Shown here: one piece after another, positions 823-60,048 of the stretch
How positions within the stretch are numbered: the stretch's first letter is position 1
How the letters are laid out: each line of letters starts with the position of its first letter
DNA from: Salinimicrobium tongyeongense
Lineage (GTDB): Bacteria; Bacteroidota; Bacteroidia; Flavobacteriales; Flavobacteriaceae
DNA: 64,000 nt
NCBI RefSeq assembly: GCF_026109735.1
Contig: NZ_CP069620.1
Span: 1,922,001-1,986,000 of the forward strand
Direction of reading: 5' to 3'
The notes under the pieces: generated by a model
What the model saw: the letters and a program-made list of their open reading frames with translations, nothing else
The model's database searches: none
Told to the model about the DNA's origin: nothing
Made by a program: the position numbers and the translations under genes

Positions 823-837
823 AAAAATGTCATTTTT
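823..837. repeat. AAAAATGTCATTTTT palindrome, copy 1 of 10
   Basis: A 15-bp palindrome whose core is AAAATGNCATTTT. It lies in the 350-bp divergent intergenic region 741-1092, right after an AGAGCTCT palindrome at 814-821. Nine more exact core copies occur in the window. Function unknown. Confidence 0.8.
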
Positions 838-890
838 GACACCCTGTAGTTAGTTTTCACGAATTTTTGCTGCTGAAGGTTTGATTGATC

Positions 891-922
891 AAAAAGGCTT
901 TTAATTTAAATATTAAAAGCCT
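891..922 (-). terminator. Hairpin with T-run on the minus strand
   Basis: Arms AGGCTTTTAAT (895-905) and ATTAAAAGCCT (912-922) pair perfectly over 11 bp with a 6-nt loop. Read on the minus strand the stem is followed by TTTTTG, as in a Rho-independent terminator. No minus-strand gene reads into it from nearby, since YegP lies on the plus strand, so it may end antisense transcription or do something else. The rest of 741-1092 shows only the 823-837 palindrome and a possible -7 box. Confidence 0.45.
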
Positions 923-1057
923 GGCATGTACTGCAAACATGTACCCTCAGTTTTGTTGCTCATTTGAAATATGGTGCCAGTTTTTGGGTTTATGAACTGG
1001 TATTTTAATCTTGATAACTTTTTGAGATTATGGGGTGGCTTCATACTTCGGTTTTTT

Positions 1058-1065
1058 TAGATTTG
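1058..1065 (+). promoter_or_regulatory. Possible -7 box TAGATTTG upstream of the YegP gene
   Basis: TAGATTTG fits the Bacteroidota -7 consensus TAnnTTTG and lies 27 bp before the ATG at 1093. No clear TTTG -33 element is seen. Confidence 0.35.
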
Positions 1066-1092
1066 AGGTTTTGAAAAATTTGAGGACAGCCT

Positions 1093-1455
1093 ATGAGTGC
1101 ATTTGTGATAAGTAAAAGAGACAATGGAAATTATAAATTCACTTTTGCCTCCCGCAAGGGAAAAACTATCTTCACCAGCATTGCCTGCAGGGAAAAATCT
1201 GATTGCGAAAAGATCATAGAGGCCATCCAGGCCGAACTGGATGCGTTCACCTTTAGGAAGGCCAGAACGGGATCGGGAAAGTATTTTTTCAGGCTTACCC
1301 GCGGCGGATTTGTGCTGGCCACCAGCCGAAAATTCTCAACGGAATTGATGCTCCAAAAAGGTATTGATCAATTCATGAAATATGTTCCGGAAGCTGAGAC
1401 GCTGGATTTTTCTTTGAATGAAGATGTTTTTGCTGAAGTTGAAGCAGAAGAATGA
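1093..1455 (+). CDS. YegP/DUF1508 family protein
   Basis: The 120-residue protein has two tandem copies of the short YegP (DUF1508) beta-beta-alpha unit. The first is near residues 5-50 (FVISKRDNGNYKFTFASRKG, then ACREKSDCEKIIEAIQ) and the second near 58-95 (TGSGKYFFRLTRGGFVLATS, then STELMLQKGIDQFMKY). The tail is acidic (about 100-120). It has no signal peptide. Members of the family are small stress-associated or uncharacterised cytoplasmic proteins and their role is not settled. The ATG at 1093 is preceded by TGAGGACAG, a fair ribosome binding site. The stop lies 12 bp from the stop of the convergent RAYT gene. Confidence 0.85.
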   Translation: MSAFVISKRDNGNYKFTFASRKGKTIFTSIACREKSDCEKIIEAIQAELDAFTFRKARTGSGKYFFRLTRGGFVLATSRKFSTELMLQKGIDQFMKYVPEAETLDFSLNEDVFAEVEAEE

Positions 1456-1466
1456 TGTTTTCTTTC

Positions 1467-2147: not shown

Positions 2148-2312
2148 TGGTGCATGGGATGAGTGATTATGTGGCTAATTTCGGGGGGAGTAAATTTTCT
2201 TCCGAAGAAGTATCAAGATATAAAAAATTAAATATCAATTATTTATAAATAACTTCAGCAAAAATAATTGCTTAAAATGGTCGTAAAAATCTTTTCCGCA
2301 GAAAATTCAGGA

Positions 2313-3539
2313 TTAAGCTTCGAGAACAGGGGCATCACTTTCTTTTTTCACCAGGAAAACGACGTAAATGAGGAGTCTACAGGCAATGAGCGAAAGCAGG
2401 ATCATTAAATTCCAGGTAAGGGTGTACCCAAAATTATTGATCATCTGCATGCCGGAATTATGGCCAAAAATATGTCCTATAGAGAATGCTATACTGTATA
2501 ATGCCATGTAGGAGCCCTGTTTTCCACCTTCGGCTCTTTTAAGGGCGAAGCTGTTTGAAAACGGAAATGCGATCATCTCCCCAATGGTCAAGAAGATCAT
2601 TCCCACAAGTAAAATGCCCACCCATCCTGTGAGGTTGATAAGCAGGAAGCTTATGGCAACCAGGATAGTTCCCGTGATGACGTGGAAAAGCGGGGAACGG
2701 ATTTTCCCTTCCAAATATTTAATGAGCGGCATTTCAAACAGGAAGATGAGGAAGCCGTTAATGCCCAGCAAAATTCCTATTTCAAATTCGGTCAAGAAAT
2801 GTACATCGGCATAATAAAGCGGGATGGTTGAAAAATATTGCAGGAACACAAAACCGAACAGGATCATTGCACCTATAAAAACAAGGTATGGCTTGTCTTT
2901 CATCATAGATTTTGGAATGCTGAGGATCTCTTTGGGGTTTTCCACGGCTTTTTTTGGGTGGAGCAGTTTTAGCAGTAAAAATCCCGCCGTGATGCAGGTA
3001 ATGCCGTCTACCCAAAAGAGTCCGCTGTAGCCGGCACCAGCAATGATGAGACCGCCAACGGCGGGCCCTGCGGAAAATCCGAGGTTAATGGCGAGCCTTA
3101 TGAGGGTGATAGATCGGGTTCGGTTTTGGGGTTTGCTGTAGGCGTTGATAGCCACAAAAACTGCAGGCCTAAAGGTATCGGCTACCAGCATTACGATAAA
3201 GATACCGGCACAAATCCCCCAAAAAGATGTGGGGAACTGCAAAAAGATAAATAAGACTCCTGAAATTAGCAGGCTAAAAGCCATGGTCTTATAATGGCCA
3301 ATTTGGTCGACCAGTTTCCCGCCCAGCCAGGATCCGGCCACAGATCCCAGGCCGAAGAACGTGAGGATCCAGCCTACTTCTTCAAGTGCAAAGCCCCTGT
3401 TTTTGGTCAAATACAGCGACAGGAATGGGATCACCATGGTGCCTGCCCTGTTGATGAAGGTGATGAATGCCAGGAGCCATACTTCCCGCCTCAGGTCACT
3501 AAAAGAGCCAATATAAGCCTTAAATAATCGCTGCAACAT
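2313..3539 (-). CDS. MFS transporter (drug-efflux-like, 12 TM)
   Basis: The 408-residue protein has about 12 hydrophobic segments and the MFS loop 2-3 signature near residues 72-84 (GSWLGGKLVDQIG), so it is an inner-membrane proton-driven facilitator of the MFS_1 type. It resembles the MdtH/YdgF-like multidrug branch more than sugar porters, but the substrate cannot be read from the sequence. The ATG at 3539 is followed by MLQRLFKAYIGSFSDL, an amphipathic cytoplasmic start. The gene stands alone. The 165 bp between it and RAYT (2148-2312) hold nothing recognisable. Promoter elements are not clear in the AT-rich upstream region. Confidence 0.85.
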   Translation of the reverse strand: MLQRLFKAYIGSFSDLRREVWLLAFITFINRAGTMVIPFLSLYLTKNRGFALEEVGWILTFFGLGSVAGSWLGGKLVDQIGHYKTMAFSLLISGVLFIFLQFPTSFWGICAGIFIVMLVADTFRPAVFVAINAYSKPQNRTRSITLIRLAINLGFSAGPAVGGLIIAGAGYSGLFWVDGITCITAGFLLLKLLHPKKAVENPKEILSIPKSMMKDKPYLVFIGAMILFGFVFLQYFSTIPLYYADVHFLTEFEIGILLGINGFLIFLFEMPLIKYLEGKIRSPLFHVITGTILVAISFLLINLTGWVGILLVGMIFLTIGEMIAFPFSNSFALKRAEGGKQGSYMALYSIAFSIGHIFGHNSGMQMINNFGYTLTWNLMILLSLIACRLLIYVVFLVKKESDAPVLEA

Positions 3540-3686
3540 TGCTGAAAAATAAAAGCTGAAATTAAATTAAAAATGGATTGGTTGGGAGGAAATTTAAATA
3601 TGAATTGTTTAAAATGAAAGTTTCTGCAAAGAAAGAGGGTGAATGCCGTTTTTTGAGAGTTTGGCTGGGAGATGGTGTGGCTGCTG

Positions 3687-3706
3687 AGACGTTGCATGCA
3701 ACGTCT
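3687..3706. repeat. REP-like 20-bp palindrome (copy B, intergenic)
   Basis: It is identical to the palindrome at 1764-1783 and lies between the MFS and M13 peptidase genes, 1.5 kb from the RAYT gene. A GATGGT...CTGCTG flank resembles the repeat flank inside the RAYT gene. Confidence 0.9.
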
Positions 3707-3720
3707 GTAGCTTTTTTTGA

Positions 3721-3785
3721 ATAATTCCTGGCGGAATTATTTTTAATCCCTGCGGGATTAATATTCTTTTTTCTGCGGAAAAAAG
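3721..3785. repeat. Row of three small hairpins with TGC-type loops
   Basis: ATAATTCC/GGAATTAT (3721-3740, loop TGGC), TAATCCC/GGGATTA (3744-3760, loop TGC) and a CTTTTTTC/GGAAAAAAG-like pair (3766-3785, loop TGC) follow one another with gaps of a few bases. Together with the REP palindrome and the terminator at 3787-3810 they fill the intergenic region 3540-3832. Confidence 0.65.
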
Positions 3786-3786
3786 A

Positions 3787-3810
3787 AAGCCCCTCCGGAA
3801 AGAGGGGCTT
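3787..3810 (-). terminator. Rho-independent terminator of the M13 peptidase gene
   Basis: AAGCCCCTC pairs with GAGGGGCTT and on the minus strand a T-rich run follows. It lies 23 bp past the peptidase stop. An AAAATGTCATTTT palindrome (3811-3823) sits between the stop and the hairpin. Confidence 0.85.
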
Positions 3811-3832
3811 AAAATGTCATTTTTTAAAGGTA

Positions 3833-5896
3833 TTACCAGATCTTCACCCGGTTTTCGGGAGCTACGTACATTGAATCTCCTTCCTGGATATTGAAGGCTT
3901 CATAGAAAGCATCAATATTCTGAAGTGGCACGTAAGCCCTGTATTCTCCGGGGGAGTGTGGATCTGTCTTGATCCTGTTCCTAAGAGCTTCTTCCCTCAT
4001 CTTGGTTCTCCAAACGGTAGCCCAGCTCATAAAAAATCGCTGCTCGGGGGTGAATCCGTCTATTTTTCCGGGATTTCCATGCTCTTTCAGGTGGATCTGG
4101 AGTCCGTCATAAGCTGCGTTCACTCCTCCAAGGTCACCAATATTCTCACCTAAAGTGAATTTTCCGTTGATATAAACTGAATCCAGTACTTCAATGGCGC
4201 TGTACTGATCGGCCAGTCTTCCGCCAAGGGTTTCAAACTGCTCAAGGTCTTTCTCGCTCCACCAGTTGTTCAGGTTGCCATCGGCGTCAAAACGCGAACC
4301 ACTGTCGTCAAAGCCGTGAGAGATCTCGTGGCCAATCACTGCTCCAATTCCGCCGTAATTCACAGCAGCATCGGCTTTATAATCGTAGAAAGGTGGTTGT
4401 AGAATGGCCGCAGGGAACACGATCTCGTTGTAAAGCGGGTTGTAATAAGCGTTCACAATTTGTGGCGCCATAAACCATTCGCTCTTGTCTACAGGTTTTC
4501 CAAGTTCGGCGATATCTTCTTCAACGCTCCATTTGGCGATGTTGAGCATATTCTGGAAGTATGACCCTCCATTTGCAGGTTCTTTGATCTCTATGCTGCT
4601 GTAGTCTTTCCACTCATCGGGATAACCTACCTTGATCTGGGTAGTGCCCAGTTTTTGCTTGGCCTTTACCTTGGTGCTGTCGCTCATCCAGCTAAGATTG
4701 TCAATCCTGTTCTCGAAGGCTTTTACCACGTTTTCAATCATTTCTTCAGCTTTTTGCTTTGCTTCAGCCGGGAAATGCTCTTCTACATATAGTTTTCCAA
4801 GAGCTTCTCCCACAGTCTGGTTGATTGTGGCAAGGGCACGTTCGTTGCGCGGAAGTTGCTTTTGTGCACCGCGAAGTGTTTTTTCATAGAATTCCCAGTT
4901 GGCATCTTCAATTTCGGTAGTCAGCATTCCTGCTGCATCGTTGAAAAGGGACCATCTAAGATATTCTTTCCAATCCTCCACATTTTGAGAAGCCAATGTC
5001 TTTTGAACGGCTTCCATGTAACGGGGCTGGCTCACAATAATAGTGTCTACGCCGGTAACACCAATGGCTTCAAAATAGCTGTTCCAGTTTACTGCCGGAA
5101 CTTTATTCTGAAGTTCGGCAACGGTCATTGGGTTATAAGTATTTCGGGCGTCACGACGCTCTACTTTGTCCAGCATAGGTTGCGCAAGCGCAGTTTCAAA
5201 CTCGAGGATAGTTTCTGCCTTTTTTGCAGCCTCTTCTTCAGAATCACTTAAGTACTGAAGCATTTTGGTAACATGAGCTACATATTTCTCACGCTTTTCT
5301 TTAGAATCTGCATCTTCAGCAATGTAATAATCCCTGTCTGGCAGGCCAAGACCTCCCGGTGACAGGTAAGCCGCGTTCATGTTGGAATTCTTTGCATCGG
5401 CACCCACGCCAAAGCTGAAGAATCCGCCGCCGCCATACATTTGCATTTCTTCAAGATAATTCTGCACGTCTTCTTTGGTCCTGATAGCCGCAATCTTGTC
5501 GAGGTAAGGCTGAATAGGCTGAATGCCCTGCTCGTTACGGGCCACGGTATCCATGATAGTTTTGTAGAGGTAAACTGCCTTAGCCTGGTCGCTGTTGCCG
5601 TCAAGGCTGTCGCTGTTTGCTGCACCTTCTAAAAGGGCAAGGGCATCGGCATCGGTCTTTTCGCGAAGTTCGTTAAAACTTCCCCATACGGTTTTGTCTT
5701 CAGGGATCTCGTTAGTATCCAGCCAACGGCCGTTCACGTACCTGAAGAAATTTTCCTGCGGAGTCACGGTAGTGTCCATGTAGGCAAGATTGATCCCGCG
5801 TGGTTCTTCGGCTTCAACTTCTTTGTCGTTCTTACAGCTGGTGAAAGCTGCTGTAGCCATAAAAGAAAGGAGAAAACCTTTACTTATTCTGTTCAT
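3833..5896 (-). CDS. M13 family (neprilysin/PepO-like) zinc metallopeptidase, lipoprotein
   Basis: The 687-residue protein has an N-terminal signal with a lipobox (FLLSFMATAAFTSC, Cys about 20), so it is probably a lipid-anchored envelope endopeptidase acting on peptides in the periplasm or at the surface. The M13 N-terminal domain spans about residues 40-430. The catalytic domain has NAYYNPLYNEIVFPAAIL, the zinc motif HEISH (His523, Glu524, His527) and the third ligand in GENIGDLGG (Glu584), with the C-terminal ...PLQNIDAFYEAF pattern complete. The length is typical of bacterial PepO. All catalytic residues are present. It is monocistronic with a strong terminator. Substrates of Bacteroidota homologues are not well known. 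Confidence 0.93.
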   Translation of the reverse strand: MNRISKGFLLSFMATAAFTSCKNDKEVEAEEPRGINLAYMDTTVTPQENFFRYVNGRWLDTNEIPEDKTVWGSFNELREKTDADALALLEGAANSDSLDGNSDQAKAVYLYKTIMDTVARNEQGIQPIQPYLDKIAAIRTKEDVQNYLEEMQMYGGGGFFSFGVGADAKNSNMNAAYLSPGGLGLPDRDYYIAEDADSKEKREKYVAHVTKMLQYLSDSEEEAAKKAETILEFETALAQPMLDKVERRDARNTYNPMTVAELQNKVPAVNWNSYFEAIGVTGVDTIIVSQPRYMEAVQKTLASQNVEDWKEYLRWSLFNDAAGMLTTEIEDANWEFYEKTLRGAQKQLPRNERALATINQTVGEALGKLYVEEHFPAEAKQKAEEMIENVVKAFENRIDNLSWMSDSTKVKAKQKLGTTQIKVGYPDEWKDYSSIEIKEPANGGSYFQNMLNIAKWSVEEDIAELGKPVDKSEWFMAPQIVNAYYNPLYNEIVFPAAILQPPFYDYKADAAVNYGGIGAVIGHEISHGFDDSGSRFDADGNLNNWWSEKDLEQFETLGGRLADQYSAIEVLDSVYINGKFTLGENIGDLGGVNAAYDGLQIHLKEHGNPGKIDGFTPEQRFFMSWATVWRTKMREEALRNRIKTDPHSPGEYRAYVPLQNIDAFYEAFNIQEGDSMYVAPENRVKIW

Positions 5897-5967: not shown

Positions 5968-6462
5968 TTATTGAGCTCTTAAATGAGACATTAATTTCCT
6001 GTCAAAATCGGCTTTTAGAGAGGTAACGGTATCTACATTCTCATTTGGAATAGCTATGGATAGGACGTAATGTTTGACCTTCCATTTGCCCGACTCATTA
6101 TCAGCGACCCCACTCCCACGGCAAATGCCCATTTGGGTGTCCAGGAGTTCATCGAACCAAGCAATTTCTCCATCTTCAGCAAAAAAGATATTGCGTTCCA
6201 GGGTTGAGAAGCTCCAGGCCTTCCCGCGGTCAAAATATGGCTTTGACCATTGCATGAATTCCTGTTTGTTCCAGTTCTCTGTAGGATCTGTCCCTATAAA
6301 AACAGATTCATCAGCCATTAAGCTGAAGTAGTCTTCATAATTGGCCTGGGCAGCCGCGGCGTGCCAGTGCTCCAGTAACTGGTTCACCTGAGTTTGGGGA
6401 GTTTGCCCAAAAGCAAAGCTTCCGAAGAAAAACAGGAGTGTCAAAAATGGCATTTTACGCAT
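5968..6462 (-). CDS. Secreted NTF2-like (SnoaL/DUF4440-type) protein
   Basis: A signal peptide (PFLTLLFFFGSFAFGQ, cleavage about residue 19) precedes a single NTF2-like alpha+beta domain of about 140 residues with the typical start VNQLLEHWHAAAAQANYEDYF and the WFDELLD strand. Such SnoaL_3 proteins are often annotated as ketosteroid-isomerase-like; the role is unknown. The first codons overlap one copy of the AAAATGNCATTTT palindrome (6444-6456), which codes for KMPFL. It lies 80 bp downstream of the 504-residue protein on the same strand and could share its transcript. Confidence 0.8.
   Translation of the reverse strand: MRKMPFLTLLFFFGSFAFGQTPQTQVNQLLEHWHAAAAQANYEDYFSLMADESVFIGTDPTENWNKQEFMQWSKPYFDRGKAWSFSTLERNIFFAEDGEIAWFDELLDTQMGICRGSGVADNESGKWKVKHYVLSIAIPNENVDTVTSLKADFDRKLMSHLRAQ
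6444..6456. repeat. AAAATGGCATTTT palindrome inside the NTF2-like gene start
   Basis: A 13-bp exact core copy that begins 6 bases into the coding sequence on the minus strand and codes for KMPFL at the head of the signal peptide. Confidence 0.8.
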
Positions 6463-6477
6463 AGATTTTTAAATTTT

Positions 6478-6541: not shown

Positions 6542-8056
6542 TTATAAATTTTTCTTTTCGGCATCAAGCGCAACGAAATTTTTAATGGCCTCGTTGGGTT
6601 CAATGATATTGTGGCCGCTCCAGAAATCAGCGTTGTAGGTTTTAAAGGTTTTGTATTCAAAATCTTGGATGGCTGGAATATTATCGAGGCTGCCGGCACC
6701 CATGGCTTCGGTTTTGTAGACTACCAGCTGCAGCTTTTCTACCTCGCTCAGCCTTAGATTGAGGTCAAGGTCGAGTTCATTTTGTTTGCGGCGGCCTTTA
6801 ACGTGCTTGTTCTTTTCAATAATGGTGAGCGGCCTTTTTATGCCCACGGTTTCCCCGGTTTCGCGCTCAAGGTAACTAAGGTTGTATTTTCCGGCTTCGT
6901 CTTTCACAAAGATCATTTTTCCGCGGTAAACATCATCGGCAGTACTTATTCCGAAGAGACGGAATTTCTTCAAAGGCTTCACATTCTCGTATTCCAAACG
7001 GTGCACTCCATAATCGAGAGTGTTCACATAGAGCCTGCCTTTAAAATCTGCTCCTCTCTTGGGTTCAAAGTCAATCACGTACACTGTGCTGTTGTCAATG
7101 TAGGCATAGCCGTTGAGCTCATACTTGTATTTATTTGACTTGTCAAAAAGGTTAAAAGTGATGTCTTCTTTCCAGAACATGCCGTTCAAAAGCCTTTTTA
7201 CGTGCTTGCCAGAGCTCTCCTGTAAATATTTCCTGCTCTTAATGCTGTCTTTTTCTTTTTCCTGGGGCGTCTTTTCTTTATTTTCGGTAGTGATCATCAA
7301 GCCTTCTTGCAATTCATCTTCATCTACCTTAAACCCGATGATGCCCGATTTAATCTTGAGGTAAGACCGCTCTTTTATGGTGTTCATGAAGATAGTATTA
7401 AAATGCTGGGTCACTTCCTCAAGGTTTTTCATGCTTTGCGGGTTGTAGAGATTTGCTGCTTTGATGATATTGACCTTCTGGTTGTCGTAATTGCCGTACA
7501 TATCGGCCAGGACTTCCTTGTAGGAGTCGGAGGTTTTGGGGATTTTTTCAGAGATCTCATCCATAAGGTGCTGGTCTATCCCGGCAATGGTACTTTTATC
7601 GACCTCCAGGTCAAAGCGGCGCACGTGGCTGGTGCCCGATTGTCTTAAGAAGACCCTCTTTTTGCTGTTGTCAAAGTTGTAATTGGTACTAACCTTTTCT
7701 TTTACTTTTTCAATGATCTCTTTTGCTGAAAGGTTTTTGCTGGAAAGAAATACCTCGCCGAGTTCTATAGAAGCCGGCTTCAGGTAAACAATTCCTTCGG
7801 AAATATCAGCGGGCGCAATTTCTGTTATTTCATAGCCAAGGGAAGAGATTTTGATAATTTCCGGAAGCCTGCCTTCTTCAGCATTATAACTGAAGAAGCC
7901 TTCTTCATTGGTGACCAGGCCGTGGTTTTCAGCAAAAATGATATTGGCGTAAGGGATAGATTGTTTTGTAGATGCATCGAGCACTCGCGCCTTAATTTCC
8001 TGGGCCTGAACCAATGCTGCCTGGAACAACAGAGTAAGAGTAAAGAGGAATTTCAT
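6542..8056 (-). CDS. Secreted protein with N-terminal carboxypeptidase-regulatory-like domain
   Basis: A signal peptide (residues 1-18, ...AALVQA) is followed by a CarboxypepD_reg-like/CNA-B-type beta domain (about 20-100: VLDASTKQSIPYANIIFAENHGLVTNEEGFFSYN), as found at the start of SusC proteins and many Bacteroidota surface proteins. The remaining 400 residues are beta-rich (LNGYAYIDNSTVYVIDFEPK, FKGRLYVNTLDYGVHRLEYE) and of the type found in DUF5686-related Bacteroidota proteins, but here the outer-membrane barrel part is absent. It is probably periplasmic or peripheral to the outer membrane. Function is unknown. It is divergent from the Rieske operon. Confidence 0.75.
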   Translation of the reverse strand: MKFLFTLTLLFQAALVQAQEIKARVLDASTKQSIPYANIIFAENHGLVTNEEGFFSYNAEEGRLPEIIKISSLGYEITEIAPADISEGIVYLKPASIELGEVFLSSKNLSAKEIIEKVKEKVSTNYNFDNSKKRVFLRQSGTSHVRRFDLEVDKSTIAGIDQHLMDEISEKIPKTSDSYKEVLADMYGNYDNQKVNIIKAANLYNPQSMKNLEEVTQHFNTIFMNTIKERSYLKIKSGIIGFKVDEDELQEGLMITTENKEKTPQEKEKDSIKSRKYLQESSGKHVKRLLNGMFWKEDITFNLFDKSNKYKYELNGYAYIDNSTVYVIDFEPKRGADFKGRLYVNTLDYGVHRLEYENVKPLKKFRLFGISTADDVYRGKMIFVKDEAGKYNLSYLERETGETVGIKRPLTIIEKNKHVKGRRKQNELDLDLNLRLSEVEKLQLVVYKTEAMGAGSLDNIPAIQDFEYKTFKTYNADFWSGHNIIEPNEAIKNFVALDAEKKNL

Positions 8057-19207: not shown

Positions 19208-19222
19208 AAAAATGGCATTTTT
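19208..19222. repeat. AAAAATGGCATTTTT palindrome, copy
   Basis: A 15-bp member of the AAAATGNCATTTT set lying between aspS and the 19260-19701 repeats, 76 bp upstream of the aspS -7 box. Confidence 0.8.
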
Positions 19223-19782: not shown

Positions 19783-20604
19783 TTAGTGATGGATTCTTGT
19801 AAAATGTACTTTATCGTTAATCGCATTAAGGATAAAATTCTCGTCAAGACCATTCACGATCCAGGTTTCAATTTTGGCTTTCTGGGTGATTTCGGCAGCC
19901 GAAACTTTTGATTCCATTCCGCCGGTACCGTGGGTGGATTTGGTTTCGCTCATCACTTCTTTCTTAAGCTCTTCCAAATCGCTCACCTTGCGGATGGTCT
20001 CCGGGGTTTTTGCCTCAATTGTACCTTTTTTGTAAACCCCATGCGTGTTTGTCGCAATGATAAAAAGGTCTACATCGAGCAAGGCTGCTGTTTGTGCAGC
20101 AAGATTATCGTTATCACCAAACTTGATGGCATCGGTAGAAGAGGTGTCATTCTCGTTTATAATTGGAATGTAGTCGTTCTTCACCAGCACATTTACGGTG
20201 TTAATGATGTTTTGACGGGAATCTTCATTGCTAAAGTCGTTGGGCGACAGCAAACACTGGCCTATTAGCAATCCAAGTTCCCTGAAGCTTTCCTGGAAAA
20301 TTCGCATGAGGTGCGGCTGCCCAATGGAGGCCAAAGCCTGCTTTACATCTATATTCTCGCCGCTGCGTTCAAGGTTCACAAATTGCTTGGCTACAGCTAC
20401 AGCCCCCGAACTGATGATCACGAACTCGTAATCGTCTTTTAAGGCGGCAATCTGCCGGCCTATATCCTCAATTTTTCCTCTCGAAATATGGTCGGTTTCT
20501 CTGGTTAGCGTATTAGAACCTAATTTTAAAAGTATCCTCTTTTTCTTCTTTGGAGTTTCCATTTGTATATTATTCTGTTCTAAAATTTTATCGAGTTTGT
20601 CCAT
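19783..20604 (-). CDS. proB: Glutamate 5-kinase
   Basis: The 273-residue enzyme phosphorylates L-glutamate in the first step of proline synthesis. It has the amino-acid kinase fold: KRILLKLGSNTLT (about residues 21-33), the ISSGAVAVAKQ glycine/serine turn, IPIINENDTSSTD for substrate binding, and HGTGGMESKVSAAEI near the C-terminus. It lacks the C-terminal PUA domain of the E. coli protein, so it is the short form. The ATG at 20604 overlaps the proA end by 17 bp; an ATG at 20562 inside the frame is a possible alternative start. The order proA-proB with overlap shows a single transcript. Confidence 0.95.
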   Translation of the reverse strand: MDKLDKILEQNNIQMETPKKKKRILLKLGSNTLTRETDHISRGKIEDIGRQIAALKDDYEFVIISSGAVAVAKQFVNLERSGENIDVKQALASIGQPHLMRIFQESFRELGLLIGQCLLSPNDFSNEDSRQNIINTVNVLVKNDYIPIINENDTSSTDAIKFGDNDNLAAQTAALLDVDLFIIATNTHGVYKKGTIEAKTPETIRKVSDLEELKKEVMSETKSTHGTGGMESKVSAAEITQKAKIETWIVNGLDENFILNAINDKVHFTRIHH

Positions 20605-21903: not shown

Positions 21904-21917
21904 AAAAATGGCATTTT
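21904..21917. repeat. AAAAATGGCATTTT palindrome, copy overlapping the RND stop
   Basis: A member of the AAAATGNCATTTT set that includes the first two bases of the RND gene's stop region (stop at 21916-21918). Confidence 0.8.
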
Positions 21918-40883: not shown

Positions 40884-41591
40884 ATGCACCACATCCAAAA
40901 ATGGCATTTTCTCCTTTTGTTATTCTTGCCTTTTTTTCTGAAAGCGCAGGAGAAGAATGATATCCCGGCTGTTGTAGATAGCTTGTATCGCGAAGATCAG
41001 GTTTATGTGAGCTTTACCTATAACATTGTTAGCGGTGGTCCTTCTGAAATAAAGAGCTCACAATTTTCCGGGGGCTTTCACACCGGTTTTATAAGGGACT
41101 TTCCTCTCAATTCACGCCGGAATGTGGCCCTGGGGGTTGGCCTGGGCTGGTCTCTTGATACCTATGGCCAAAACCTGTTCATAGGGGAAGCCACAGAGGG
41201 GGAAGGAACGCGTTTTACAGTACTCAACAGAGACAGGGTGGACTTCGATGCAAATCGCTTTACCACGCAGTCTATAGATCTCCCTATCCAGTTTAGATGG
41301 CGCACTTCAACTCCCGAAAGTTATAAATTCTGGCGCATCTATACCGGGATCCGTCCCGCCTATGTTTACCATTTTCAGTCTAAGTTTGTGCAGGATGGCA
41401 ACAGCTTTAGGGAGACGAACATTCCTGAATTTGAAAAACTACGGTTAGGCGCAACCTTTACTTTTGGTTATAACACCTTTAATTTTTCTTTTTATTACAG
41501 CCTCAACTCTTTCTTTAAAGATGCCGCGGTGAATAATGAAGATCTCGATCTTCGCACTTTCCAGGTGGGGCTTACTTTCTACTTGTTATAA
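40884..41591 (+). CDS. PorT-like outer-membrane beta-barrel protein
   Basis: The 235-residue protein has a signal peptide (about 1-21, LLLLFLPFFLKA) and a barrel-like body of Gly/aromatic strands (ALGVGLGWSLDTYGQNLFIG, FWRIYTGIRPAYVYHFQS, LGATFTFGYNTFNFSFYYSL) ending in FQVGLTFYLL. It matches the PorT family, one of whose members is needed for the type IX secretion system; not every PorT-like protein is. The palindrome AAAAATGGCATTTT (40897-40910) codes for part of the signal sequence. The stop overlaps the convergent PAP2-like gene by 6 bp. Confidence 0.82.
   Translation: MHHIQKWHFLLLLFLPFFLKAQEKNDIPAVVDSLYREDQVYVSFTYNIVSGGPSEIKSSQFSGGFHTGFIRDFPLNSRRNVALGVGLGWSLDTYGQNLFIGEATEGEGTRFTVLNRDRVDFDANRFTTQSIDLPIQFRWRTSTPESYKFWRIYTGIRPAYVYHFQSKFVQDGNSFRETNIPEFEKLRLGATFTFGYNTFNFSFYYSLNSFFKDAAVNNEDLDLRTFQVGLTFYLL
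40897..40910. repeat. AAAAATGGCATTTT palindrome inside the signal sequence of the PorT-like gene
   Basis: A member of the AAAATGNCATTTT set starting 13 bases after the start codon, in the same position as the copy in the NTF2-like gene (6444-6456). Confidence 0.8.
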
Positions 41592-48418: not shown

Positions 48419-49126
48419 CTAAAAATTTACTTTGGTGCCTATCTTTTCTCCGGTTACCACTTTTTCAAGATTGCCGGGTTTGTTCATGTCAAAGACAATT
48501 ATTGGCAATTTGTTTTCCTGGCTAAGGGTAAAAGCAGTAGTGTCCATCACCTTCAATCCTTTGGTAAGCACATCGTCAAAGCTGATAAAGTCAAATTTCT
48601 TGGCTTTTTTGTCAATTTCGGGATCTGCAGTATAGATACCATCAACCCGAGTGCCTTTTAGAATAACATCGGCGTGAATTTCAATAGCGCGTAAGACTGC
48701 TGCGGAATCTGTGGTGAAATATGGGTTCCCTGTACCTCCTCCAAAAATGACCACCCGGCCTTTTTCGAGGTGCCTCATGGCTTTTCTTCTAATGAAAGGT
48801 TCGGCTACTTCATTGATCTTTATGGCCGATTGAAGCCGGGTTTGGATGCCGGTATCTTCAAGGGCCGATTGCAGTGCGAGGCCGTTAATTACCGTGGCCA
48901 GCATTCCCATGTGGTCTCCGGTCACGCGGTCCATCCCGCGGCTGGCACCTGCAACACCCCTAAAGATATTGCCGCCGCCAATGACTATGGCTACTTCCAC
49001 CCCCTTGTCTGTCACGGCTTTTATTTCCCTGGCATATTCGGCTAAACGTTCGGGATCGATCCCGTATTGACGAGAGCCCATTAGAGCCTCGCCCGAAAGT
49101 TTTAGTAAAATTCTTTTGTAATGCAT
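48419..49126 (-). CDS. pyrH: UMP kinase
   Basis: The 235-residue hexameric amino-acid-kinase-fold enzyme makes UDP from UMP. The start [14 protein letters not shown] (about 5-18), [13 protein letters not shown] (about 45-57) and [20 protein letters not shown] are the standard blocks. It heads the pyrH-frr operon. A -7 box lies upstream at 49149-49156. Confidence 0.97.
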
Positions 49127-49275: not shown

Positions 49276-49288
49276 AAAATGCCATTTT
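49276..49288. repeat. AAAATGCCATTTT palindrome, copy
   Basis: A 13-bp exact member of the palindrome set in the 423-bp gap between pyrH and tsf (49127-49549). Confidence 0.8.
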
Positions 49289-49549: not shown

Positions 49550-50374
49550 TTATCCTAAAGCAACTCTTTCAAAAGCTACCACCTTAAGGTTGGCATCTTC
49601 AGATTTTACGTATTCAGCAACAGACATTTTGCTGTCTTTGATGTAATCCTGGTTTACAAGTGTGTTGTCTTTGAAGAAACGCTTGATTTTACCTTTGGCG
49701 ATATTGTCAAGCATGCCTTCCGGTTTGCCTTCCTGTCTAAGCTGATCTTTGGCAATCTCGATTTCTTTCTCGATGATAGACTGGTCAACTCCTTCTTCGT
49801 TAAGGGCCACAGGGTTCATTGCAGCTGCCTGCATAGAAACGTTCTTGGCGATTTCTTCGGCTCCTGCAGTTTGTTCAGAAAGTCCTGTAAGAACAGCAAT
49901 CTTGTTTCCGGCGTGGATGTAAGAACCTACGAAAGGAGCTTCAAGGGTTCTAAAGTCCCCAATTTCGATTTTCTCACCTATAACTCCGGTTTGCTCAGTA
50001 AGTTTTTCCTGAACTGTAATGCCTTTGTAATCCTTTGCAAGTAATTCTTCTTTAGAATTTACGTTCAAAGCAAGATCGGCGAAATCTTGTGCAAGTTGAA
50101 TGAATGATTCGTTCTTAGCCACGAAATCTGTTTCACAGTTAAGGGAAACGATCACACCTCTGGTGCTGCCTTCGTTTACTGTAGCGATCACGGCTCCTTC
50201 AGAAGATTCTCTGTCGGCACGGTTCGCAGCAACTTTTTGGCCTTTTTTACGAAGTACTTCAATAGCTTTATCGTAATCTCCTTCGGCTTCAACCAGTGCT
50301 TTTTTACAATCCATCATACCGGCACCGGTAGCTTTTCTCAATTTATTTACTTCTGCGGCGGTTATATTAGCCAT
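49550..50374 (-). CDS. tsf: Translation elongation factor Ts
   Basis: The 274-residue nucleotide exchange factor of EF-Tu has the N-terminal UBA-like VNKLRKATGAGMMDCKKALVEA (about 9-30) and the core with NCETDFVAKNESFIQLAQDFADLAL (about 79-103). It is downstream of rpsB with a 92-bp spacer that holds a terminator hairpin. Confidence 0.97.
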   Translation of the reverse strand: MANITAAEVNKLRKATGAGMMDCKKALVEAEGDYDKAIEVLRKKGQKVAANRADRESSEGAVIATVNEGSTRGVIVSLNCETDFVAKNESFIQLAQDFADLALNVNSKEELLAKDYKGITVQEKLTEQTGVIGEKIEIGDFRTLEAPFVGSYIHAGNKIAVLTGLSEQTAGAEEIAKNVSMQAAAMNPVALNEEGVDQSIIEKEIEIAKDQLRQEGKPEGMLDNIAKGKIKRFFKDNTLVNQDYIKDSKMSVAEYVKSEDANLKVVAFERVALG

Positions 50375-51363: not shown

Positions 51364-51369
51364 TTTTGT

Positions 51370-52741: not shown

Positions 52742-52777
52742 CCACCTGTTTCAATGAAAAAGAAAAAAGAAGACGAA

Positions 52778-53377
52778 ATGAAAAAGTATTTACAAAGAGT
52801 GATGATGGGCGGAGTAGGTTTAGGTATGTTAATGTCCTGTACTGCAGAGAGTGTAAGTGACGATGCGCTTTCCCTTAATGCCACAACTTCTACCGTGCCT
52901 ACACAGGATCTTAGCATGAACGACCTTGCCGGAACCTGGAACATGTATTCCATGACCTCAATTGGCGAAGGAAAAACCGTAGATTTTGACGGAGATGGTA
53001 ATTATACCTATAACCTTCTTGAAGAAACCGACTGTTTTGACAATATGTTTTTTGTTTTTGAAACCAACGGAGATGTATTAACCGAACAGGCCAGGTTGTA
53101 TTTTGACGCTTCAGGAAAATTTACCTGTTCAACAACAGGTCGTTATGCTGCTACATACCAGATTAATGGGAATGAACTTACAGTTACTTTCACAGTGAAC
53201 GGCATAGCATACACACAGTCTAAAACCGTTTCCCGCTATAGTGAAAATGGAAAGGAATATTTGAAAGTTACACTAACTGAAGCCGAGACCGATTCGGCTG
53301 TTTATGTGGCTGATGACCCGGGGAACACCGTAGCGTCAGATATTAAACAAATTGATATGGTGTATCAAAGACAGTAA
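52778..53377 (+). CDS. Lipocalin-like lipoprotein
   Basis: From the ATG at 52778 the product is 199 residues with a lipoprotein signal (RVMMGGVGLGMLMSC, Cys18-19). The mature part has the GTWNMYSMTSI start of a lipocalin-like fold (about residues 42-52) and alternating beta strands (YAATYQINGNELTVTFTVNG) of the type seen in Bacteroidota lipocalin_4/5 family lipoproteins. Ligand is unknown. ATGs at 52739 (TTG) and 52754 extend the frame upstream; the -7 box excludes the first and makes the second unlikely. It converges with polA on a shared terminator. Confidence 0.8.
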   Translation: MKKYLQRVMMGGVGLGMLMSCTAESVSDDALSLNATTSTVPTQDLSMNDLAGTWNMYSMTSIGEGKTVDFDGDGNYTYNLLEETDCFDNMFFVFETNGDVLTEQARLYFDASGKFTCSTTGRYAATYQINGNELTVTFTVNGIAYTQSKTVSRYSENGKEYLKVTLTEAETDSAVYVADDPGNTVASDIKQIDMVYQRQ

Positions 53378-53393: not shown

Positions 53394-53440
53394 TAAAAAA
53401 AGAATCCCCAAAAATGTCATTTTTGGGGATTCTTTTTTTA
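53394..53440. terminator. Bidirectional terminator with AAAATGTCATTTT in its loop
   Basis: AAAAAAGAATCCCC pairs with GGGGATTCTTTTTT around the palindrome AAAAATGTCATTTTT (53410-53424). It serves the lipocalin-like gene and polA, which end on either side. An inverted repeat TCTAAGGA/TCCTTAGA (53444-53475) follows. Confidence 0.9.
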
Positions 53441-53496: not shown

Positions 53497-56322
53497 CTAG
53501 TGTGCTTCCAGCCAGTTTTCTCCAAGGCCAAGCTCTACTTCTAAAGGAACTTCCATCTTAAAGGCGTTTTCCATCTCGTGCTTCACCATTTTCTGAATGT
53601 CCTGCAATTCGGGGCGGTACACGTCAAAAACAAGTTCATCATGCACCTGCAACAGCATTTTTGTGCGGTAGTTGCCTTCCTGTAGTTTCTGGTGAATATT
53701 AATCATGGCCAGCTTGATGATATCGGCGGCACTACCCTGTATTGGGGCGTTCACGGCATTTCTTTCTGCGGCACTGCGCACCATCTGGTTGCGGGAATTA
53801 ATGTCACGCAAATACCTTCTTCTGCCCAATACGGTTTGCACATAACCGTGTTCCCGGGCAAATTCTACCTGTTCGCTTATGAAATTCCGAAGTTTTGGAT
53901 AGGTTTTGTAATAGGTGTCTATAAGTTCTTTTGCTTCTCCTCTGGAAAGTTCGGTTTGATTGCTAAGCCCAAAAGCCGAAACCCCGTAAACAATTCCGAA
54001 GTTTACCGTTTTAGCGTTGCTGCGCTGCTCCCTGGTTACTTCTTCTATAGGAACATTAAAGACTTTTGCAGCAGTAGAAGCGTGAATGTCCTGGTTTTGT
54101 TGAAAAGCAGAGATCATGTTGTCTTCCTTGCTCAAAGCGGCAATAATTCTCAGTTCTATCTGTGAATAATCGGCGGCCAGCAGCACGTGATCAGGGTCTC
54201 TGGGAACAAAGGCTTTTCGCACCTGTCTTCCCCTTTCGGTCCTAATGGGGATATTCTGCAGGTTCGGGTTGTTGGAACTCAGCCTTCCGGTGGCGGCAAC
54301 CGTCTGCATATAATCGGTATGTACCCGGCCGGTAGTGGCGTCTACCTGTAGTGGCAGGGCATCAATATAAGTGTTCTTCAGTTTTACGAGTCCGCGGTAA
54401 TCCAGTACCTGCCGTACTATCTTATGCTGCGGAGCCAGGGCCGAGAGGATCTCTTCTCCCGTAGAATACTGCCCCGACTTTGTTTTCTTTGGTTTCTCCA
54501 CCAGTTTCAGCTTTTCAAATAAAATGATGCCAAGCTGTTTTGGGGATCCAATATTAAACTCTTCGCCCGAGGTCTCAAAAATGTCATTTTCGAGCTGCTT
54601 TATATCTTTATCTAATGCTTCGGAAAGGCTGGCAAGAAAATCTTTGTCCAGTTTTATCCCTTCCAGTTCCATATCGGCCAGTACGCGTACCAGCGGGATT
54701 TCGATGTCATTGAAGAGCTTTTCGGTATTTGCTTCCTTTAATTCGGGGGTAAAATGCTGTTTCAGCTGGAGGATCACATCGGCATCTTCTACACTGAATT
54801 CAGTTTGCTGCTCCAGCGGAATTTCGCGCATGGATTTTTGGTTCTTTCCTTTTCCCAGCAATTCTTCCGCAAAAACAGGAGAATAATTAAGGTAGGTTTC
54901 TGAAAGTACATCCAGGCTGTGGCGCATATCGGGGTTGATAAGGTAATGCGCGATCATGGTGTCAAAAAGCGGCCCTTTAAACCTGATGTTGTACTTGGCC
55001 AGTACCTTAATATCGTGTTTTAGGTTTTGCCCCACTTTTTCAATGTCTTCAGCTTCAAAGAAAGGGCGAAGTTTCTCCATCACCTGCATGGCTTCGGTTT
55101 TATCTTCGGGAACCGGCACATAAAAACCTTTCCCGGCTTCCCATGAAAATGCCACGCCGATTATTTCTGCGGAAAAAGGGTTGAGACCGGTGGTGGTGAA
55201 TTCAAAACACACACATTTTTGCTTCATTAAATTCTGAAGGAAAAGCTCTGTGGCCATACCTGAATTTACGCTTTGATAAACATGGGGCACATCTTTTATG
55301 GTCTTTCTGCCCGAAAATTTTTCCACACTTTCGGATGCTTCAGCTCCAAAAAGGGAAAATTGCCCGGCTCCTGCCTGGCGTTCCTGGGCTTTTGCGGTAG
55401 CTGTGCTCGTTACCTGTGTGGGCCGCGCTGTTTCCTCGCCAGAAAATAGCTTCAGAAATTGCTCTTTTAGACGCCTGAATTCAAGCTCCTCGAAGATCTC
55501 CTGTACCTTTTCGGCATCGGGCATGGAGAGTTCGTAATCTTCAGCATGAAACCGCACATCACAATCGGTCATAATGGCGGCGAGTTTTTTGGAGATCATG
55601 CCCTGTTCGGCATGGGCCTCTACTTTTTCGCGCATTTTGCCTTTGAGCTTGTCGGTATTTGCCAGCAGGTTTTCCATGCTGCCAAACTCCTTCAGGAATT
55701 TTTTGGCAGTCTTTTCGCCCACCCCGGGAAGTCCCGGAATATTGTCTACGGCATCGCCCATCATTCCAAGAAAGTCTATTACCTGCTCGGGCCGTTCCAC
55801 GGCAAATTTCTTCTGAACTTCGGGGATGCCCCAAATTTCAATCCCGTTACCCATGCGGGCAGGGCGGTACATAAAGATATTTTCAGAAACAAGTTGCGCA
55901 AAATCCTTATCGGGCGTTACCATGAAGACTTTATAGCCTTCTTTTTCTGCCTGTTTTGCCAGGGTGCCAATAATATCATCGGCCTCACAGCCGGGCAGCA
56001 CTACCACCGGGATATGCATGGCGGTCAATATCTCCTGGATGTAAGGAATGGCTTTTAAAATGGGTTCGGGCGTGGCATCGCGGTGCGCCTTGTAGGCTTC
56101 AAACAATTCGGTGCGGGCGGCACTGCCTTCCTTGTCAAAACAAACGGCTAAATGATCGGGTTGTTCCCGCCTAATTACATCAAAAAGGGAATTCATGAAC
56201 CCCATAATCGCCGAGGTGTCAAGGCCTTTTGAGTTGACTATGGGATTGTTGATAAAAGCGTAATATCCCCTAAAAATAAGGGCGTAAGCATCGAGAAGGA
56301 ACAGGCGTTTTTGTTCGGGCAT
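53497..56322 (-). CDS. polA: DNA polymerase I
   Basis: The 941-residue enzyme has the 5'-3' exonuclease domain (about 1-290, LFLLDAYALIFRGYYAF and VTPDKDFAQLV), a linker (about 295-340), the 3'-5' exonuclease-like domain (about 350-530) and the polymerase domain with motif A DYSQIELRI, motif B NAKTVNFGIVYGVSAFGL and motif C VHDELVFDV. In the exonuclease domain the usual Asp-x-Glu pair of Exo I is Glu-Phe-Thr (FEFTTTGL), while the Exo II Asp (KHDIK) and Exo III Asp (DADV) remain; proofreading may be lost. Two AAAATGNCATTTT-like sites lie inside or beside the gene. Confidence 0.96.
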   Translation of the reverse strand: MPEQKRLFLLDAYALIFRGYYAFINNPIVNSKGLDTSAIMGFMNSLFDVIRREQPDHLAVCFDKEGSAARTELFEAYKAHRDATPEPILKAIPYIQEILTAMHIPVVVLPGCEADDIIGTLAKQAEKEGYKVFMVTPDKDFAQLVSENIFMYRPARMGNGIEIWGIPEVQKKFAVERPEQVIDFLGMMGDAVDNIPGLPGVGEKTAKKFLKEFGSMENLLANTDKLKGKMREKVEAHAEQGMISKKLAAIMTDCDVRFHAEDYELSMPDAEKVQEIFEELEFRRLKEQFLKLFSGEETARPTQVTSTATAKAQERQAGAGQFSLFGAEASESVEKFSGRKTIKDVPHVYQSVNSGMATELFLQNLMKQKCVCFEFTTTGLNPFSAEIIGVAFSWEAGKGFYVPVPEDKTEAMQVMEKLRPFFEAEDIEKVGQNLKHDIKVLAKYNIRFKGPLFDTMIAHYLINPDMRHSLDVLSETYLNYSPVFAEELLGKGKNQKSMREIPLEQQTEFSVEDADVILQLKQHFTPELKEANTEKLFNDIEIPLVRVLADMELEGIKLDKDFLASLSEALDKDIKQLENDIFETSGEEFNIGSPKQLGIILFEKLKLVEKPKKTKSGQYSTGEEILSALAPQHKIVRQVLDYRGLVKLKNTYIDALPLQVDATTGRVHTDYMQTVAATGRLSSNNPNLQNIPIRTERGRQVRKAFVPRDPDHVLLAADYSQIELRIIAALSKEDNMISAFQQNQDIHASTAAKVFNVPIEEVTREQRSNAKTVNFGIVYGVSAFGLSNQTELSRGEAKELIDTYYKTYPKLRNFISEQVEFAREHGYVQTVLGRRRYLRDINSRNQMVRSAAERNAVNAPIQGSAADIIKLAMINIHQKLQEGNYRTKMLLQVHDELVFDVYRPELQDIQKMVKHEMENAFKMEVPLEVELGLGENWLEAH
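54577..54590. repeat. AAAAATGTCATTTT palindrome inside polA
   Basis: The only copy of the palindrome set deep inside a coding sequence; it codes for part of ENDIFE on the minus strand. Confidence 0.8.
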
Positions 56323-56407: not shown

Positions 56408-56462
56408 TAATGGATCAGGAATTAAATTTTATAAATACCATCTAATGTTCAGGAATAATAAT

Positions 56463-56503
56463 AAAGCCCTCTCAGTTTTCAAAAAAATCTGTGAGGGCTT
56501 AAA
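56463..56503 (-). terminator. Rho-independent terminator of the sugar transporter gene
   Basis: AAGCCCTCTCAG pairs with CTGTGAGGGCTT with one mismatch; a T-rich stretch follows on the minus strand. Confidence 0.78.
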
Positions 56504-56528
56504 TTTTTATGGTAGTTATAGCTGAACG

Positions 56529-58394: not shown

Positions 58395-58402
58395 TATCTT
58401 TG
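58395..58402 (+). promoter_or_regulatory. -7 box TATCTTTG of the metallophosphoesterase gene
   Basis: It fits TAnnTTTG, with TTTG 15 bp upstream (58376-58379), a short spacer. The ATG at 58421 lies 18 bp after it. The TTG at 58400 is inside the box and is rejected as a start. Confidence 0.65.
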
Positions 58403-58420
58403 CAGCTTAAAAATTTTTAC

Positions 58421-59641
58421 ATGCGCTGGATCATTTTTGTAATCATTTACCTCATTCTCGATATATACGCCTACCAGGCTTTTAAAACCGTTACCCGCCA
58501 ATCCTGGATCTACTTTATCTACCTCGCCCTTTCGCTTGGGGTTTTGGGGTATTTGTTGTACCAGTTCAATGTGCCCGAAAAACAGGGTCTTACCGGGGCA
58601 CGGAGTTATGCCATAGGTTTCTTTCTGGCCTTTTTCGCCCCCAAGCTCATCCTTTTCTTTCTGCTTTTTGGCGAAGATCTCGTTCGGCTGGTGGTTAGCG
58701 GATTTCAGAAACTGGCGCACACCAAAACCGAATATTCCCTGCCTTCACGCCGCAAATTCGTGAGCCAGGTGGCCCTGGGGATAGCCGCCATTCCGTTTGC
58801 TTCGCTGCTCTACGGAATGTATCGCGGGCGCTACAACTATAAGGTGCTTAAGTATGTGCTGCATTTTGACGACCTGCCCGATGCCTTCGACGGCTACAGG
58901 ATAACCCAGATTAGCGATGTGCACTCCGGAAGTTTTGACAATCCTGAAAAAATAAGCTACGGGATAGCACTTATTAACGAGCAAAAAAGCGATGCCGTGA
59001 TGTTTACCGGAGACCTGGTGAACAACACGGCCTCTGAGATGGACCCCTGGAAGGAAGTTTTTTCGGGGATTTCGGCACCCGACGGGGTTTATTCGGTGTT
59101 GGGAAATCACGATTACGGCGACTATGTGCACTGGGAATCTGCAGCGGCAAAAAAGGCAAATTTAGAGGCTCTTAAAGCTGTGCACCGGGAAATGGGCTGG
59201 AACCTTTTGCTCGATGAACACAAAAAAATTACCCGCGGCAGCGATACTATCGCCATAGTGGGCGTGGAGAACTGGGGCGCCGGTTTTAAACAGGTGGGCG
59301 ATCTTGGCAAGGCTGCAAGCGGACTTTCTGCCGGGGAGTTCAAGATCCTCCTGTCGCACGACCCGTCTCACTGGGAACAAAAAGTTAAAAAGGATGAGAA
59401 GAAATTCCAGCTTACGTTAAGCGGGCACACCCACGGGATGCAGTTTGGAATAGAAATTCCCGGCTGGTTCAAATGGAGTCCGGCGCAGTACAGGTATGAG
59501 CACTGGGCTGGAATTTACAACGAAGCCGGCCGCTTTCTCAATGTGAACCGTGGCTTCGGATTCCTGGCTTACCCGGGCAGGGTAGGGATATGGCCCGAAG
59601 TTTCGGTAATTGAACTTCGGAAAGGGCCAAAACCCGCATAG
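58421..59641 (+). CDS. Membrane-anchored metallophosphoesterase (YaeI-like)
   Basis: The 406-residue protein has about three or four membrane segments (about 3-20, 30-48, 68-92, 120-137) and then a calcineurin-like phosphoesterase domain with all metal-site blocks: ISDVHSG (about 167-173), FTGDLVN, GNHDYGD, LSHDP and SGHTHGMQFG near 346. Relatives act on lipid head groups or nucleotides at the membrane. The catalytic part faces the cytoplasm or periplasm depending on helix count, which cannot be fixed here. Confidence 0.88.
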   Translation: MRWIIFVIIYLILDIYAYQAFKTVTRQSWIYFIYLALSLGVLGYLLYQFNVPEKQGLTGARSYAIGFFLAFFAPKLILFFLLFGEDLVRLVVSGFQKLAHTKTEYSLPSRRKFVSQVALGIAAIPFASLLYGMYRGRYNYKVLKYVLHFDDLPDAFDGYRITQISDVHSGSFDNPEKISYGIALINEQKSDAVMFTGDLVNNTASEMDPWKEVFSGISAPDGVYSVLGNHDYGDYVHWESAAAKKANLEALKAVHREMGWNLLLDEHKKITRGSDTIAIVGVENWGAGFKQVGDLGKAASGLSAGEFKILLSHDPSHWEQKVKKDEKKFQLTLSGHTHGMQFGIEIPGWFKWSPAQYRYEHWAGIYNEAGRFLNVNRGFGFLAYPGRVGIWPEVSVIELRKGPKPA

Positions 59642-59655
59642 AACAAACTTTTGAC

Positions 59656-59663
59656 TATATTTG
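59656..59663 (+). promoter_or_regulatory. -7 box TATATTTG of the thioredoxin-fold gene
   Basis: It fits TAnnTTTG and lies 51 bp before the ATG at 59715. It rules out the TTG at 59661 as a start. Confidence 0.5.
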
Positions 59664-59714
59664 AGAAAGGCTGCAGAAACCCATGTTCCTGTGGCTTGCT
59701 ATAAATTTCAAAAT

Positions 59715-60011
59715 ATGTCGAAATTTGGAGAATTAATCGATCTGCAGGTGCCGGTCCTGCTTGAGTTCTACACCCAATGGCACGAAGCTTCCAAAGCTAT
59801 GCAACCGGTTTTGAAAGAAGTGGCCTCGGCCCTGGGAGACAAGGCCAGGATCATTAAAATTGATGTAGATAAGAATTCTGAACTTGCTGAAGCCCTGCGT
59901 GTTAAAGGTCTGCCTACCCTTATGATCTATAAGACAGGGGAGATGAAGTGGAGGCAAAGCGGCGAACAGGATGCCGAAACACTAATAGGCCTTATTAATG
60001 AATATGTGTAA
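59715..60011 (+). CDS. Thioredoxin-fold protein lacking the CXXC motif
   Basis: The 98-residue product is a clear thioredoxin fold: VPVLLEFYTQWHEASKAMQP (about 12-31), IIKIDVDKNSELAEALRVKGLPTLMIYKTG with the cis-Pro of the family, and a C-terminal helix. The active-site WCGPC is WHEAS here, so both cysteines are gone (His23-Glu24-Ala25-Ser26). It cannot work as a disulfide reductase by the usual route and may be a binding or chaperone-type relative. Nothing else follows on its transcript before the terminator. Confidence 0.9.
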   Translation: MSKFGELIDLQVPVLLEFYTQWHEASKAMQPVLKEVASALGDKARIIKIDVDKNSELAEALRVKGLPTLMIYKTGEMKWRQSGEQDAETLIGLINEYV

Positions 60012-60048
60012 AAAAGGTTCCAAAAATGACATTTTCGGAACCTTTTTT
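60010..60048 (+). terminator. Rho-independent terminator with AAAATGACATTTT in its loop
   Basis: AAAAAAGGTTCC pairs with GGAACCTTTTTT around the palindrome AAAAATGACATTTT (60022-60035). It ends the thioredoxin-fold gene. Confidence 0.9.

Follow-up and report, generated by a model that had tools for sequence, protein, structure and literature searches.

A genus-restricted palindrome of Salinimicrobium as a possible uptake-like label of self DNA

The stretch considered here, hereafter the window, comprises 64,000 nucleotides of the Salinimicrobium tongyeongense chromosome (G000:C1:1922001-1986000; the genome, G000, is a single contig of 3,509,958 bases). An earlier note, made from the letters of the window, had pointed to ten exact copies of a 13-bp palindrome, AAAATGNCATTTT, with a variable central base. 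Every start and every central base given there is borne out, and we suggest that the palindrome may be a label of self DNA resembling the uptake sequences of other bacteria. With genes called by a simple coding score, the ten exact sites lie as follows:

824..836, central base T: between a DUF4256 gene (177-740, minus strand) and a divergent DUF1508 gene (1093-1455, plus strand)
3811..3823, central base T: just 3' of the stop of a gene at 3833-5860 (minus strand), beside a terminator-like inverted repeat
6444..6456, central base G: upstream of a SnoaL-like gene (5968-6387, minus strand, by coding score)
19209..19221, central base G: between a class II tRNA synthetase gene (17352-19028, minus strand) and a gene at 19783-20604 (minus strand)
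21905..21917, central base G: overlapping the stop codon of a gene at 21916-25368 (minus strand)
40898..40910, central base G: immediately upstream of a gene for an outer-membrane beta-barrel protein (40926-41591, plus strand, by coding score)
49276..49288, central base C: between a gene at 48419-49126 (minus strand) and the EF-Ts gene (49550-50374, minus strand)
53411..53423, central base T: occupying the centre of a terminator-like hairpin, between a gene at 52754-53377 (plus strand) and the convergent polA (53497-56322, minus strand)
54578..54590, central base T: within the coding sequence of DNA polymerase I (polA)
60023..60035, central base A: occupying the centre of a terminator-like hairpin, between a thioredoxin gene (59715-60011, plus strand) and a convergent gene at 60161-62017 (minus strand)

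The proposal that seven of the ten sites are noncoding or touch a stop codon holds if the longest open reading frame (ORF) is taken at each place. By the coding-score calls the figure is nine of ten: the sites at 6444 and 40898 fall inside genes only under longest-ORF calling, and the site at 54578 is inside polA. The G+C content of the window, put at about 42% before, is 44.0% when computed, and 100 dinucleotide shuffles of the window gave no match to AAAATGNCATTTT.

Abundance, symmetry and placement of the sites

A whole-genome count near chance would have spoken against the observation of the earlier note. The count in the whole genome (3.51 Mb) is far from chance, with 424 exact copies of AAAATGNCATTTT against one of the reversed control pattern. 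With up to one mismatch there are 954 sites against 58 for the control (one-mismatch sites alone, 530 against 57). Near-perfect copies are strongly over-represented genome-wide, as is expected of a DNA uptake sequence. Detailed reading covered about a quarter of the genome, an 864-kb sample. It contains 125 exact sites, of which one tandem array accounts for 13, and 119 sites with one mismatch; a second-order Markov model predicts 1.3 and 13.4, respectively. Sixteen stretches of G000, picked where no sites had been listed and totaling 320 kb, contain 44 sites. Each of 15 control palindromes has at most one copy in the same sampled DNA, and the next commonest palindrome of the same shape, TTCTTCNGAAGAA, reaches 14 copies in the 864 kb. 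A text search of the literature with literal motif strings led to titles in parasitology and vector work, with AAAATGNCATTTT absent among the matches listed; for the Salinimicrobium genome and repeat literature, nothing among the matches listed concerns this palindrome by title.

The tandem array (L042 8490-8802; G000:C1:428490-428802) consists of thirteen head-to-tail 25-bp units, each with an exact core. On one side of it an M16-peptidase-like gene has its stop, on the other a convergent phoU-like gene ends (names from sequence), and a terminator-like repeat follows the array.

In 113 sites, with the array taken as a single one, the core is surrounded by a symmetric but degenerate frame, ~39 bp in all, and outside this frame the copies have unrelated flanks. 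The extension to (T)CAAAAATGNCATTTTTG(A) that had been noted in the window is therefore real, and the full motif goes further. Outward from the core the arms prefer A, C, T/C, G/T/C, T, C/G, G/C, A, any base and then four A. Among one-mismatch copies, 62 of 118 differ at the two positions flanking the centre.

By position, the 113 sites divide into 38 genic, 35 tandem, 24 convergent and 11 divergent, with five adjoining the ends of sampled stretches. Genes make up 86% of the sampled DNA and carry 0.05 sites per kb; the intergenic densities are 0.94 per kb for convergent, 0.52 for tandem and 0.44 for divergent regions (counts over lengths). Genic sites occur in all three frames (15, 19 and 4), and distances from sites to starts and stops are scattered. 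Sites are spread over nearly all sampled parts of the chromosome rather than confined to a terminus domain. Central base and replichore show no clear bias with respect to each other. The GC skew of the sampled stretches switches sign near 1.6 Mb and 3.3 Mb of the contig, points that may correspond to origin and terminus.

The 38 genic sites retain the separate consensus of each arm, with no consistent pairing excess within the 39-bp frame, and at intergenic sites arm pairing exceeds expectation at some positions. Near-perfect hairpins (at least 8 of 9 arm positions paired) form at 11 of 24 convergent sites, 2 of 35 tandem sites, none of the 11 divergent or 38 genic sites, and 3 of the 5 sites at stretch ends. 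Because hairpins concentrate at convergent sites, the intergenic pairing excess is attributable to terminators. An arm consensus kept without pairing in genes, along with hairpins in terminators, suggests that the motif is recognised in double-stranded form and is at times incorporated into a terminator. The preserved arms, the free centre and the retained core all speak for the twofold-symmetric protein site that the earlier note had envisaged. We consider it very probable that AAAATGNCATTTT is a genome-wide site on double-stranded DNA that is read by a protein, rather than a repeat element, a terminator or a promoter operator.

Distribution and turnover among Salinimicrobium genomes

The palindrome is restricted to Salinimicrobium among the genomes sampled. 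Ten of the eleven other genomes of the genus hold 19-460 exact sites (G001 to G011: 0, 34, 460, 19, 201, 207, 121, 225, 164, 191, 118; G001 and G009 are 74-75% complete, and G004 is 99% complete). Genomes outside the genus have 0-8 exact sites in a set of 48 and 0-14 in 295 more, about the level of the control pattern. A scan of named genomes with TCAAAAATGNCATTTTTGA gave at least 120 stretches; among the 80 titles listed, 65 are Salinimicrobium (Flavobacteriaceae, Bacteroidota) and 15 are scattered other bacteria. Viral contigs gave 21 stretches with one site apiece.

Site counts broadly fall with the distance of DNA polymerase I from that of S. tongyeongense. Identity is 96% in the genome with 460 sites, 93% in those with 207 and 225, and 90-91% in those with 201, 191, 121 and 118, and at the site-poor end it is 85% (34 sites), 81% (19) and 74% (0); in G009 the protein matched over 361 of 941 residues only. 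Weaker copies exist in the site-poor genomes, given their one-mismatch sites (204 in G002 and 142 in G004, against 34 and 81 for the control). In samples of these sites the arms are closer to the S. tongyeongense consensus than control arms are (G002, n=18, p 0.03; G004, n=12, p 0.014; one-sided). No replacement palindrome was found in ~265 kb of each of the two genomes, with half-sites of 5 or 6 and gaps of 0-8.

The comparison with relatives used one region of up to 67 kb together with 8-kb loci chosen for the presence of a site, and eight of the ten window sites (6444, 19209, 21905, 40898, 49276, 53411, 54578 and 60023) were aligned. Sites arise by substitution, as the gap-free alignments at 6444, 21905 and 54578 show. 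The site at 6444 has one mismatch in G003. At 21905 it is exact in five of nine relatives and one mismatch away in two, with differing flanks and a changing centre base. At 54578 it is exact in G003 only, other relatives have intermediate forms, and none is gapped; the exact site in polA goes with asparagine (S. tongyeongense and G003), where six relatives have lysine, one has glutamine and one has isoleucine. The nearly gap-free alignment at 40898 has two exact and five one-mismatch relatives of nine. The site at 19209 is exact in G003, G006, G007 and G008, two species are gapped across it, and three intervals were too long to align. The site at 49276 is present in none of nine relatives aligned. 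At 53411 the aligned relatives have other terminator loops of differing length, and at 60023 the site is exact in G003, the only genome aligned, with co-varied arms. The site at 3811 is exact in G003 and G005.

Over 78 aligned pairs, identity is 91% in the core (12 positions), 76% in the flanks, 74% in the arms and 58% at the centre. Conservation among close relatives, whose absence would by the earlier note have refuted its observation, is clear in one direction of look-up and weak in the other. Sites of relatives looked up in S. tongyeongense are exact at 29 of 40 alignable places (28 under a stricter treatment of gaps), against ~19% expected from the squared rate of half-words outside sites; the 40 come from 219 such sites, the rest of which could not be aligned to the sampled quarter of G000. 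In the reverse direction, the window sites are exact in 11 of 38 pairs. This asymmetry suggests that older sites have been kept and that many new ones may have been gained in the lineage of G000 and G003.

A possible uptake-like label and its rivals

So, is the palindrome an uptake sequence? The DNA uptake sequences (DUS) of Neisseriaceae and uptake signal sequences (USS) of Pasteurellaceae resemble it in coming as hundreds of near-perfect copies, in being clade-specific, in lying both within and between genes, and in being reused in terminators, where DUS also occur according to PMC3630211. Another likeness is that AAAATGNCATTTT is lacking from a region that carries a conjugation gene. The listing of sites is complete for the first 1.01 Mb of the contig, and there 158,862 consecutive bases are free of them (G000:C1:550844-709706; 39-41% G+C in four sampled parts); random placement, done 10,000 times, never produced so long a gap. 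Eight proteins encoded in the gap were tested (E 1e-10): a TraG-type conjugation ATPase, two members of the AcrB family, a P-type ATPase, a GH65 protein, an M16 protein and two without match. In Neisseriaceae, conjugative elements have been located through unusual distributions of DUS (PMC7371117). The 159-kb stretch counts towards an uptake-like label.

The DNA channel and processing genes comEC and dprA are kept by S. tongyeongense, as they should be if the palindrome is an uptake sequence. In a search of the genus genomes, both are long open frames in ten (S. tongyeongense and nine others, with 34-460 sites). In G004, with its 19 sites, both genes are broken (L274 about 6721-7565 and L279 about 3468-4544): comEC is reduced to fragments in different frames at the conserved locus and dprA is split over frames, with intact neighbours in each case. 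Neither gene was found above cut-off in G001 (0 sites, 74% complete), in which the fetched contig was not syntenic. G001 and G004 have the two lowest site counts of the twelve genomes, a chance of 1 in 66 by rank. Divergence of ComEC outpaces that of most neighbouring proteins (identity 84% with G003 and 52% with G002; L278 6515-8449 against L275 and L276), and the adjoining NlpC/P60 gene does likewise (85% and 48%).

A precedent for transformation exists in Riemerella anatipestifer, placed in Flavobacteriaceae by the authors of PMC8459023, who report that it needs ComEC, DprA, ComF, RecA and four proteins unlike known machinery. The eight essential genes, as listed there, include no pilus gene, from which we infer a route that needs no pilus. 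R. columbina prefers its own DNA, and the candidate signals listed in PMC7965970 are A/T-rich k-mers only; the same source reports that no transformation was found in Flavobacterium johnsoniae. For a flavobacterium, then, preference for its own DNA is on record, though with no convincing signal sequence (PMC7965970).

AAAATGNCATTTT is abundant, near-perfect in its copies and specific to one clade; it has spread by substitution, is tolerated within genes, reaches its highest density where there is no promoter to disturb, and is lacking from a stretch that carries a conjugation gene. In all this it resembles uptake sequences more than it does operators or known organising sites. We give an uptake-signal-like label of self DNA a probability of roughly 0.42. 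Under this proposal, the core would be read on double-stranded DNA by a putative twofold-symmetric protein, and flavobacterial transformation machinery would prefer the site-bearing DNA of lysed sister cells. Recombination of the incoming DNA would spread new copies and restore lost ones, and the site would thereby accumulate wherever the sequence tolerates it. Slightly more tentative still is the fuller version, in which a palindromic, genus-specific uptake or self-recognition sequence of Bacteroidota, read by transformation machinery without a classical pilus, has been caught while spreading, from early branches where copies are few and degenerate to one lineage with over 400 perfect ones. 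If the palindrome is an uptake signal in Salinimicrobium, it offers a probe for the DNA receptor and a graded set of species among which the emergence of such a signal could be followed. Whichever reading holds, the whole genome is under a sequence-specific force strong enough to go with a changed residue of DNA polymerase I.

Several observations weigh against an uptake label. DUS and USS are non-palindromic and denser, at about one per kb, whereas AAAATGNCATTTT is palindromic, sits in a degenerate 39-bp frame and occurs about once per 8 kb in exact form. Unlike lineages with DUS, S. tongyeongense has no pilus-type ATPase (T2SSE family) above cut-off (G003 has one strong match), so the classical pilus route looks absent and AAAATGNCATTTT is not to be filed with the sequences read by type IV pili, as in Neisseriaceae. 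G001 and G004 are also the most distant members of the genus by polA; low counts follow phylogeny, and the evidence from gene loss is therefore not independent and only suggestive. That evidence comes from one clearly tested genome, G004, and G002 has both genes open yet only 34 exact sites. Looked up in relatives, the window sites have a per-base identity of 85%, equal to that of half-words (flanks 74% against 79%). The spacing of sites in the first 1.01 Mb is clustered, and four further 20-kb stretches elsewhere are site-free (L039, L049, L053 and L054, with an EF-G gene in L053), so that absence of sites is no proof of foreign DNA.

The main rival, which we regard as rather unlikely, is a genus-specific chromosome-organising or nucleoid protein (MatP-, SlmA- or Noc-like) that would bind the sites in the cell as a dimer over ~39 bp, the sites being kept by selection on chromosome structure. 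In accord with it are the twofold symmetry, the degenerate outer arms (at two positions G and C can replace each other, and A-runs lie beyond), the wide spread over the sampled chromosome and the retained core. Like the matS site of MatP in Enterobacteria, AAAATGNCATTTT is a 13-bp palindromic site scattered on the chromosome, and the centre of matS is free as well. The number and placement of sites are less favorable: in the 800-kb Ter domain matS occurs 23 times (PMC3330122), whereas here a different sequence has 424 copies across the chromosome, a third of the classed ones genic, with no restriction to one macrodomain in the sampled stretches, which exceeds the organising sites compared. ParB_N gave one match in S. 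tongyeongense and one in each of 28 others of 30 genomes, so no Noc-type ParB paralogue was seen. We know of no chromosome-organising site in Bacteroidota, and if AAAATGNCATTTT is one, it is present there in more than 400 exact copies.

An operator serving a global transcription regulator, with targets in the hundreds, is distinctly unlikely. A palindromic core with a free centre would suit such a site, and 46 of the 108 classed sites lie in tandem or divergent DNA able to hold promoters. Against this, sites are not concentrated upstream of genes: 38 of 108 are at scattered genic positions, start-codon distances are scattered, convergent regions, which need no promoter, are densest, and the genes adjoining the window sites have no obvious common pathway. 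Site location thus disfavours a promoter operator, and the tests favour the uptake-like label over it.

An origin through methylation-dependent repair, as proposed for HIP1, the highly iterated palindrome of cyanobacteria, is very unlikely. HIP1 is likewise a highly iterated palindrome of one clade, and AAAATGNCATTTT is similarly both genic and intergenic. HIP1 is GC-rich, tied to methyltransferases and deviates at its outermost positions (PMC4390886), whereas AAAATGNCATTTT is AT-rich with 12 fixed bases and most variable at its inner positions, the mismatches lying mostly next to the centre; this pattern disfavours a HIP1-like origin.

A terminator or other RNA hairpin element is most improbable. 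The 13 of 70 classed intergenic sites that form near-perfect extended hairpins, 11 of them convergent, are what such an element would give, but the lack of any at genic and divergent sites, and genic arms that keep their consensus without consistent pairing, lead us to reject termination as the primary function.

Next to negligible is a mobile repeat, either a repetitive extragenic palindrome (REP) or a miniature inverted-repeat transposable element (MITE): the sites are short, palindromic, repeated and mostly intergenic as REPs are, and one local array repeats a 25-bp unit with 13 exact copies, but REPs by definition seldom overlap genes and form stem-loops (PMC12306157), whereas here genes contain a third of the classed sites and extended hairpins are lacking at most sites, and with unrelated flanks and gap-free orthologous alignments we found no long repeat units or insertions, the array and the gaps at 19209 in two species excepted.

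Other repeats in the genome

Two further sequences stand out in the 864-kb sample of G000. The word TTCCGAAG / CTTCGGAA has no clear replichore bias and is over-represented on both strands together, with 295 occurrences in genes against 46 expected and 42 in intergenic DNA against 4.6. A second palindrome family, approximately AAACCT(C/A)ACAGGTYTNNNARACCTGT(G/T)AGGTTT, occurs at 13 places (for example L046 5939 and L052 2780), all 13 of them intergenic, and its outer pair co-varies as in a hairpin. Exact cores of this second palindrome number 21 in G000, 2-30 in ten other genomes of the genus and 0 in G001, and outside the genus set there are 10 in G013, 6 in G023 and 9 in G040.

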